From assembly GCA_001818695.1 (NCBI GenBank), contig MHJG01000020.1, forward strand, positions 1 to 51,899: a DNA stretch of 51,899 nt, in the 5' to 3' direction. How positions within the stretch are numbered: position 1 is the first letter of the stretch; each line of letters opens with the position of its first letter. Below, piece by piece: positions 13,681-15,585 of the stretch. A program made the translations under genes and the position numbers. The notes beneath the pieces are model-generated. The model had not been told where the DNA came from, did no database searches, and was given only the letters and a program-made list of their open reading frames with translations. This DNA comes from Candidatus Harrisonbacteria bacterium RIFCSPHIGHO2_02_FULL_42_16. Lineage in GTDB: Bacteria; Patescibacteriota; Minisyncoccia; UBA6257; 02-FULL-45-10c.

Positions 13681-13752
13681 GCCGCGGTAGCTCAGTGGTA
13701 GAGCGCAGCCCTGAAGAGGCTGGCGTCGGTGGTTCAATTCCGCCCCGCGGCA
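13681..13752 (+). tRNA. tRNA-Phe (GAA)
   Basis: Anticodon loop CTGAAGA, acceptor GCCGCGG/CCGCGGC; target of the inserted element. Confidence 0.95.
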
Positions 13753-13757
13753 CAAAT
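13738..13757. repeat. 20-bp direct repeat (tRNA-Phe 3' end), left copy: TTCCGCCCCGCGGCACAAAT
   Basis: Identical to 15566-15585, same orientation. Confidence 0.97.
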
Positions 13758-13877
13758 AATAAATTGTTGATATATTATATGGATTGTGGAATTATACAAC
13801 TCTGCTCGAACATTTTTTGAAGGGAACTGACCCGCCTCCGCTTCGCTCCGGCGGAACGTTCGAGCGCGGCGGAATTC
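13754..13877. repeat. Left terminal inverted repeat
   Basis: AAATAATAAATTGTTGATATATTATATGG...GGAATTC; 5 mismatches by eye to the reverse complement of 15441-15564. Confidence 0.95.
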
Positions 13878-14004
13878 TCTCCCCATGGGAGATCTCCCGT
13901 AAGGATGACCCCCACACCTCTTCGAGCCTGAAGGCCCTTCAGAGCCTGAACGGGGCCCCCTTCCGCCGCGCCCTCTCGGGAGGCCAAAGTTTTTTCGCCG
14001 CCAG

Positions 14005-14634
14005 TTACTTTATCTTAAAATAATCCTCAACAGCAGTCAAAAGGTCGTTCGGATTTTCAACAAGACGGAATGGTTTTCCGCGGAGCAAAGTTTCTGGTGT
14101 GTGAAATCCCCAAGTAATACCAATTGATCCAACGCTCATTTTCTCGGCTTCGTGCATATCACCGAGAGTGTCGGTTATAAAAACACAATCTTTCGACTCC
14201 ACATCAAATTTTTCGAAAACCATTTTCATTTTCTCTACTTTGCTTGTATGCACATCGTTGCCCATGATTTGAGCAAAATGATTGGCCAAATCGTATCCTT
14301 CCAAAAATTCTTGAATTGGACTCGTAATCGTGGAAGAAATAATGATAAGCGTATAGTTTTTCTCTAAACCAACAATAACGTCTTTTATTCCGGGCACGAT
14401 TTGGACTTCATTTTTCATTCTCGGAATGTATTCGGTAAAGAAATCAATGTCGTGCCGACATTCTTCGGTATGAACATTTATCGGTTCTTCCCAATCATTG
14501 ATGTTTCCTTCAAATCTTTTTCGATAAATGTTCTCTGTTAAATGAGGGCAAATCATTTTCTGAATTTCAAAAGCTGACTGAAATGAATCGGCTATCACGC
14601 CATCAAAATCAAAAAGGATAAACTTCTTTTTCAT
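14005..14634 (-). CDS. HAD-superfamily hydrolase
   Basis: ILFDFDGVIADS; IIISSTIT; KVEKMKMVFEKF; FITDTLGDMHEAEKMSVGSIGITWG. Confidence 0.85.
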   Translation of the reverse strand: MKKKFILFDFDGVIADSFQSAFEIQKMICPHLTENIYRKRFEGNINDWEEPINVHTEECRHDIDFFTEYIPRMKNEVQIVPGIKDVIVGLEKNYTLIIISSTITSPIQEFLEGYDLANHFAQIMGNDVHTSKVEKMKMVFEKFDVESKDCVFITDTLGDMHEAEKMSVGSIGITWGFHTPETLLRGKPFRLVENPNDLLTAVEDYFKIK

Positions 14635-14637
14635 AAA

Positions 14638-15081
14638 TTATTTGCCCCCACTTGCAAGATATTCTGCAAGATATTCTTTAATAAGTTCCAGCGCGGCTGG
14701 ATTGATAAAATTTTCGGGATACTCTTTTTCACCAAACCATCGCCATTCTGAAAACTTTTCCGGTTCAATTAGCCGCGCTTCTTGCTTTGATTTGCATATA
14801 AACAACGGCACTAAATCTCCCGATTTTGATCCAGGAACTTCACCAAGATATTTTTTAATTTCCAAGTCATTGATTCCGGTTTCTTCTTCAACCTCTCGAC
14901 GGAGCGTGGTTTCAAGCGTTTCGCCAGAATCACATCTGCCACCTGGAATTGTCCAGACCGAAATTGTTTTCCATTTATCGGGAGTATAGTGCCGTAGCCC
15001 CATTAAAACTTTCCCATTTCTAACGATTATTGCGACTGGACAAGTTGTTTTATCACCAGTTTTTGACAGTCGATTTTCCAT
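14638..15081 (-). CDS. Nudix hydrolase
   Basis: GGRCDSGETLETTLRREVEEETGI matches the Nudix box GX5EX7REUXEEXGU. Confidence 0.92.
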   Translation of the reverse strand: MENRLSKTGDKTTCPVAIIVRNGKVLMGLRHYTPDKWKTISVWTIPGGRCDSGETLETTLRREVEEETGINDLEIKKYLGEVPGSKSGDLVPLFICKSKQEARLIEPEKFSEWRWFGEKEYPENFINPAALELIKEYLAEYLASGGK

Positions 15082-15086
15082 AACAA

Positions 15087-15293
15087 TTATTTCAATAATT
15101 CATCAGCCGATACGCTAAGCGCGTTAGCTAATCTTTGAATTGTAGCAAGGGTAGGATTTTTATTACCACTCTCAATGTTGCTAATATAGCCCTTGTCAAC
15201 CTCTAAAAGCCGCGCTAAAGCTCCTTGCGACAATTTTTTCTTGGCGCGAACCTTTTTCATGTTCTCGCCTAATTTCTTTGATATTTCTTGCAT
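15087..15293 (-). CDS. XRE-family HTH regulator
   Basis: KKLSQGALARLLEVDKGYISNIESGNKNPTLATIQRLANALSVSADELLK. Confidence 0.9.
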   Translation of the reverse strand: MQEISKKLGENMKKVRAKKKLSQGALARLLEVDKGYISNIESGNKNPTLATIQRLANALSVSADELLK

Positions 15294-15337
15294 ATTCCTT
15301 ATACACAATTTATCATTTGTTGTTTTGTTAGACAACG

Positions 15338-15355
15338 GTTATACTATAGTATAAC
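15338..15355. promoter_or_regulatory. Perfect 18-bp palindrome upstream of the HTH gene, likely operator/-10 region
   Basis: GTTATACTATAGTATAAC. Confidence 0.7.
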
Positions 15356-15440
15356 TATGCTAAAGAATTTTTTAATTGAATTGGCGGCAAAAAAATTCTG
15401 GGCCTCCCGCGAGGGCGTGGCAGAAGGGGGGGTGTGAGGG

Positions 15441-15564
15441 GAATTTCGCCGCGCCCGAGCGTTCCGCCGGAACGAAACGGAGGCGGGTCAGTTCCCTTCA
15501 AAAAATGTTCGAGCAGAGTTGTATAATTCCACAATCCATATAATATATCAACAATTTATTATTT
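15441..15564. repeat. Right terminal inverted repeat
   Basis: Reverse complement of 13754-13877. Confidence 0.95.
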
Positions 15565-15565
15565 T

Positions 15566-15585
15566 TTCCGCCCCGCGGCACAAAT
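15566..15585. repeat. 20-bp direct repeat, right copy
   Basis: TTCCGCCCCGCGGCACAAAT. Confidence 0.97.

Follow-up and report, generated by a model that had tools for sequence, protein, structure and literature searches.

The window, a 51,899-nt contig of Candidatus Harrisonbacteria bacterium RIFCSPHIGHO2_02_FULL_42_16, contains an element of 1.8 kb directly after a tRNA-Phe (gaa) gene (positions 13681–13753, plus strand), which is a host gene serving as its anchor. The 3' end of this gene forms the left copy of a 20-bp direct repeat, TTCCGCCCCGCGGCACAAAT (13738–13757, plus strand), and the right copy at 15566–15585 is exact and lies on the same strand. When the two element ends were compared over ±60 nt, the direct-repeat score was 20, compared to ≤9 in shuffled sequences. 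The terminal inverted repeats (TIRs) are 124 nt long (left, 13754–13877, plus strand; right, 15441–15564, minus strand); they differ at five positions (88, 93, 106, 110, and 119), and their first 87 nt are identical. The match between the arms can be extended to 13740–13877 and 15441–15578 (93% over 138 nt), reaching into the tRNA owing to the partly palindromic sequence of the tRNA end. A search with a 62-nt piece of the arm gave two matches in the window and none in 100 shuffles. Further inward, a second repeat pair (13956–13995, plus strand, and 15391–15430, minus strand; 83% identity) represents an inner part of the TIRs that is conserved in other cassettes. Using Rfam, we identified no credible RNA family in the repeats besides tRNAs.

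Three genes, all on the minus strand, lie between the arms: the signature first gene, which encodes an XRE-type HTH protein (15087 to c. 15293; Pfam HTH_3), and two cargo genes predicted to encode a Nudix hydrolase (14638–15081; Pfam PF00293) and a HAD-like hydrolase (14005–14634; Pfam PF13419). The element has no recombinase of its own. An earlier note on this DNA had described a compact integrated element at the tRNA 3' end, with the 20-bp direct repeat, 124-bp TIRs with about five mismatches, arm similarity continuing inward, co-oriented HTH-Nudix-HAD cargo, and no recombinase, and our analysis bears out each of these features.

Both arms run on for 32 nt beyond a short core. This outer segment, X, lies outside the conserved cassette end, between the tRNA and the core on the left (13754–13785, plus strand) and as an inverted copy at the far end (15533–15564, minus strand). 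The core is GTG on the left (13786–13788) and CAC at the far end (15530–15532), both given for the plus strand; in relatives it reads TGGTG or TGGCG, the reverse complement of the CCA-type end of a tRNA. Immediately inside the cores are two proposed attP-type half-sites (13789–13811, minus strand, and 15507–15529, plus strand), each of which, read outward, has a GTTC motif at a distance of 23 nt from the core. The window-type P site has the sequence GTTCGAGCAGAGTTGTATAATTC, and the half-site 24-mer is invariant at 24 CPR sites. Within the window-type half-site (15520–15527, with equivalents at the 24 loci carrying the 24-mer), TGTATAAT forms an extended -10 promoter-like motif directed outward, and this motif is missing from the other half-site types. 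X-like segments also flank both sides of the elements at loci L126 and L128, as a tRNA-proximal terminator with an inverted copy at the far end; it looks as if exchange between the arms had copied flanking DNA outward. We also considered X as a direct repeat and rejected this, as the loop sequences show X to be inverted in the window, L126, and L128.

A 24-mer of the TIR occurs exactly 24 times in ~85,000 GTDB species genomes; all of the named hosts are CPR bacteria, spanning Parcubacteria to Microgenomates (Woesebacteria, Blackburnbacteria, and Roizmanbacteria). A 22-mer of the arm had no matches in viral contigs. With a threshold of E ≤ 1e-6, 65 of the 244 genomes from the order contained a match to the arm. 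The TIR search of the host and its relatives that the earlier note had recommended recovered further copies in both. Within the host genome, contig C16 carries at least one further element with the same arms, whose genes encode an HTH protein, a methyltransferase, and a protein that we read as NDT-like. On contig C9, a cassette end directly follows tRNA-Ala(cgc) (L188), and contig C22 has a weaker candidate after tRNA-Met. The C9 end, the right end of L124, and the left end of L130 all touch a tRNA directly, and at these ends GAAC lies ~14–16 nt from the core rather than 19–20 nt, which is nearer to attB-type spacing.

Many of the elements are complete and paired, with sizes of 1.1–6.7 kb. Their arms are 93–356 bp long and divergent between elements; within an element they are usually 97–100% identical, with lower values in a few cases (92% in L119). 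A GC-rich hairpin whose loop is a run of C, GGGCGCGGCGGAATTCCCCCCACACCCCCCTTCCGCCGCGCCC (e.g., L077 4320–4390), is the most widely conserved part of the arms, more so than the half-sites. An XRE HTH homologue was present in 20 of the 24 cassettes examined, and it is always the gene nearest one arm, pointing inward, with ~190–550 nt between it and the repeat's outer end. The XRE protein may regulate the cassette or its excision. The remaining cargo is variable and includes restriction-modification genes, transporters, and enzymes. Examples are a HinP1I-type restriction-modification system with an OLD/Gabija-like ATPase, a LexA-methyltransferase fusion, and type I-like methylase and specificity genes. 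By reading the sequence only, we further assigned ABC-type transporters, exchangers, and threonine aldolase-like proteins. The fusion (L116 1050–2483) joins a LexA DNA-binding domain and an S24 peptidase to an N6/N4 DNA methyltransferase, and its gene adjoins an endonuclease VII-like gene; this pair is possibly a damage-controlled restriction-modification system. Two other cassette proteins (L120 3491–5053 and L125 1806–3224) have a LexA-like start, based on a match of the start sequence only.

We defined the cassette family by a TIR with a core followed after 19–20 nt by GAAC, an XRE gene in first position, variable cargo, and a CPR host. All of these are found in the window element, and we are nearly certain that it belongs to this CPR family of tRNA-anchored TIR cassettes. 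The family is apparently undescribed so far: our search of the open-access literature returned no description of these elements.

Repeats can break assemblies, and several contigs do end within the TIR, as might be expected if the locus were an assembly artefact or a set of immobile ancestral genes flanked by terminator-like repeats. Comparison across genomes refutes both possibilities. The architecture recurs in independent genomes, and cassettes switch between flanks; mis-assembly as the origin of the repeats, a concern of the earlier note, is unlikely because cassettes with the same ends occur in many independent genomes. Likewise, the idea that all relatives carry the same genes at this locus does not hold, as nine relatives carry tRNA-Phe genes that have no cassette beside them and lack the three cargo genes as well, which provides the empty site that the earlier note had proposed to look for.

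The earlier note had likened the geometry of the element to that of casposons and their miniature derivatives and had suggested a Cas1-like or other enzyme acting in trans. Casposons insert at tRNA 3' ends and have been described with TIRs of 25–602 nt and a target site duplication with a median of 15 nt (PMC4046053); the window element resembles casposons and mini-casposons in its tRNA 3' end, long TIRs, and direct repeat. However, Cas1 was absent from 17 of 17 genomes of the host family, and neither PolB, Cas1, nor a transposase was found in the cassettes inspected. Of the 12 cassettes tested, only two have a target duplication of ≥13 bp, namely, the window element (20 bp) and L124 (13 bp), and we therefore rejected target duplication as a general rule. 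The fixed core and half-site spacing, along with the serine recombinases adjacent to related cassettes, also argue against a casposon-like or DDE transposon that makes 15–20-bp duplications at tRNA ends. We strongly disfavour this explanation and consider it very improbable. From the earlier suggestion, movement in trans stands as probable, whereas a Cas1-like mover does not.

Elements with the same TIR were also to be checked for a linked enzyme. They yielded neither cas1 nor a transposase in the cassettes inspected, but many cassettes adjoin a separate 1.7-kb unit that has its own inverted arms and encodes one large serine recombinase (SR) with Resolvase, Recombinase, and zinc-ribbon domains (PF00239, PF07508, and PF13408). 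The SR protein is related to the SPbeta YokA and A118 integrases; it is 25–30% identical to its best phage and plasmid matches, and its profile matches in the PDB include 9dxh and 4kis. Using an SR profile, we identified matches in 118 of the 244 genomes of the order (E ≤ 1e-30); SR was present in 42 of 65 genomes with the TIR and in 76 of 179 without it, a moderate association (p = 0.002, odds ratio 2.5). At least 11 of 106 TIR matches are found no more than 500 bp from an SR gene, whereas an estimate from SR density gives <1 expected by chance.

Among 30 SR loci, the SR unit abuts a facing tRNA 3' end in 26, and a cassette end lies on the other side of the unit. The resulting arrays have the order tRNA, SR, cassette (L117, L118, L122, L129, and L201); tRNA, SR, cassette, SR, cassette (L193); or cassette, SR, cassette (L192), and L195 has two tRNA-anchored sets in a row. 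The array at L084 combines two types of cassette end in neighbouring positions. The core variants CCACCA, CCGCCA, GCACCA, and CAGCCA each correspond to the terminal part of the particular tRNA, and an inverted copy of this core lies at the end of the SR unit away from the tRNA. At its 3' end, the SR gene extends into the inverted arm of its unit (e.g., L117 43–1815 and L122 5195–6989) and, in L122, over the tRNA end; the opposite arm carries this 3' end of the gene in inverted orientation.

Spacing of the GT[TC]C motif, read outward from the SR unit, distinguishes the two sides of the junctions. On the tRNA side, motif and junction are 18 nt apart in 15 of 17 cases (19 and 15 nt in the others), and the same spacing is present in the window, where the T-loop GTTC of tRNA-Phe (13732–13735, plus strand) is 18 nt before GCAC. 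On the cassette side, the distance is 23 nt in 19 of 21 cases (24 and 21 nt in the others). The 18-nt spacing follows from tRNA anatomy, as the motif belongs to the T-loop, whereas the 23-nt spacing is not explained in this way. In the attP half-sites of serine integrases, the motif bound by the zinc-ribbon domain (ZD motif) occupies positions 16–24, and in attB it is shifted 5 bp inward relative to attP (Rutherford et al. 2013, PMC3783163). The same 5-bp offset, 18 versus 23 nt, was observed in most of 19 SR units. We propose that the tRNA end is an attB site and the cassette ends are attP half-sites mainly because both the offset and the absolute position match the published values. With half-sites anchored at GT[TC]C, SR relatedness correlated with half-site similarity across 14 non-redundant units (Mantel r = 0.51, p = 1e-4), a correlation from which shared ancestry is not removed.

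Two comparisons show units in different surroundings. The cassette interiors of L062 and L077, from two CPR genomes, are 99% identical over 1,089 nt; their flanks are unrelated, and the change-over occurs at the core. The SR units of L129 (genome G121) and L194 (genome G197) are 90% alike, with similarity beginning at the core, and past the core there is a tRNA-Ser at one unit and a cassette end at the other. Homologous recombination between shared long TIRs after DNA uptake, with a serine integrase acting only as founder of the arrays, would account for the length and conservation of the arms. It would also suit L115 and L117, which share most of a cassette at 92% identity over 2.5 kb and differ in another gene, and L117 and L118, which share an SR unit and the outer part of the TIR and carry different cargo. 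However, the unrelated flanks of L062 and L077 mean that a homologous target was unnecessary there, and an exact 23-nt spacing is unexpected under homologous recombination, which we consider unlikely as the main route.

A slightly better alternative, although also unlikely, is that the tRNA-Phe repeat served as att core for a classical tRNA-targeting tyrosine integrase, which either has been lost or is the host Xer, and that the serine recombinase unit is a mere neighbour. A direct repeat of this length (16–20 bp) in this position is typically seen where tyrosine integrases target tRNA 3' ends, and in a survey of Mycobacterium abscessus, the tRNA attB sites belonged to tyrosine rather than serine systems (PMC10654092). 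A direct repeat of a tRNA-Phe 3' end was also found in the relative G016 (L167 1501–1690), with the second copy ~80 bp downstream and an insert without a cassette; this may be a scar, or else a miniature element that uses the same hot spot. The host genome (754 kb in 25 contigs, ~91% complete) does encode one tyrosine recombinase; however, it is XerD-like and unlinked, located on another contig, and we identified no tyrosine integrase in or near the window element. In addition, among cassettes with both flanks, a long direct repeat is found only in the window and L124, and related cassettes adjoin SR units, not tyrosine integrases.

The explanation that we favour, with a probability of roughly two-thirds based on sequence comparisons, is that the window element belongs, as a non-autonomous cassette, to a mobile system of CPR bacteria whose large serine integrases recognise tRNA 3' ends as attB. 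For the cassette family as a whole, a serine integrase is the probable mover. Its gene would reside in the separate SR unit, usually fused to a tRNA end, whereas the cassette would consist of the XRE gene and variable cargo between two inverted attP-type half-sites within long inverted repeats. The T-loop GTTC would serve as the zinc-ribbon motif of attB, with the same motif located 5 bp further out in the cassette end, and at the CCA-type core the integrase would join the tRNA half-site to that of the cassette. The element in the window may have arrived by such joining, or as a form already extended by X, with the enzyme supplied in trans; the same enzyme would then act in trans on other cassettes that lack SR.

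The window element has both attP-type half-sites and the signature XRE gene and lacks an SR. Several observations fit a serine integrase less well. No serine recombinase was found anywhere in the host genome at ~91% completeness, and the arms of the SR unit itself are without the GTTC motif. A short common core suffices for serine integration, which thus does not explain a direct repeat of 16–20 bp; most relatives fit short-core integration, whereas the 20-bp repeat in the window goes beyond it. The presence of X outside the half-site at both ends also departs from a simple serine scheme. The oddest part is the arms themselves, which at 93–356 bp and near identity within an element are more than half-sites need.

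In logic, the closest known system is the integron, in which a recombinase unit is accompanied by arrays of exchangeable non-autonomous cassettes. The present family differs in its serine rather than tyrosine recombinase, the lack of a known attC, two inverted ends rather than one site, anchoring at tRNAs, and cassettes of several genes. The cassettes seem to be delivered to tRNA ends by a serine integrase that seeks tRNAs, which would make the family a serine-enzyme counterpart of the integron. The closest working analogues are SCC and ECC elements, and recombinase-less forms of SCC and SCCmec exist. In SCCmec/SCC and ECC elements, which carry variable cargo, serine recombinases target the 3' end of rlmH, and the att sites have inverted repeats (PMC6222049). 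The CcrAB systems and the proposed cassette system share a serine recombinase, a conserved-gene 3' end as target, variable cargo, and att sites with inverted repeats; however, the targets here are tRNA 3' ends rather than rlmH, the inverted repeats are 93–356 bp long, integrase and cargo units are each bounded by inverted repeats, nearly every cassette has an XRE gene, and the units measure ~1.5–6.7 kb. Large serine integrases of the A118/LI integrase and SPbeta YokA type have the same Resolvase, Recombinase, and zinc-ribbon domains, and their ZD motif is displaced by the same 5 bp between attB and attP. Unlike in those systems, tRNA 3' ends would serve here as attB with the T-loop as motif, and the integrase occupies its own inverted-repeat unit beside separate cassettes.

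CPR genomes are tiny, and we found no paper on a CPR gene-capture system in the open-access literature. A cassette system extending across Parcubacteria and Microgenomates would offer a testable route of horizontal gene transfer, including the transfer of restriction-modification systems. More tentatively, at somewhat less than even odds, the family may represent a categorically new CPR gene-capture system, with serine integrases that read the nearly universal T-loop and CCA end of tRNAs as attB, tRNA-anchored arrays in which integrase units alternate with inverted-repeat cassettes, a cassette-encoded XRE protein as common control or directionality factor, and the spread of defence and metabolic genes among CPR lineages. 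If an integrase used the T-loop and CCA end as attB, it could in principle find sites in many genomes, a property of interest for genome engineering, and the 5 bp by which tRNA and cassette half-sites differ give enzymologists a clear prediction.

The tRNA-Phe genes of two relatives have a further peculiarity. In G005 (contig C26, 8403–8690) and G009 (contig C7, 18838–19122), the tRNA-Phe matches are split around the anticodon by ~210–220 bp (L177, L181, L186, and L187), and the interruption resembles an anticodon-loop intron.
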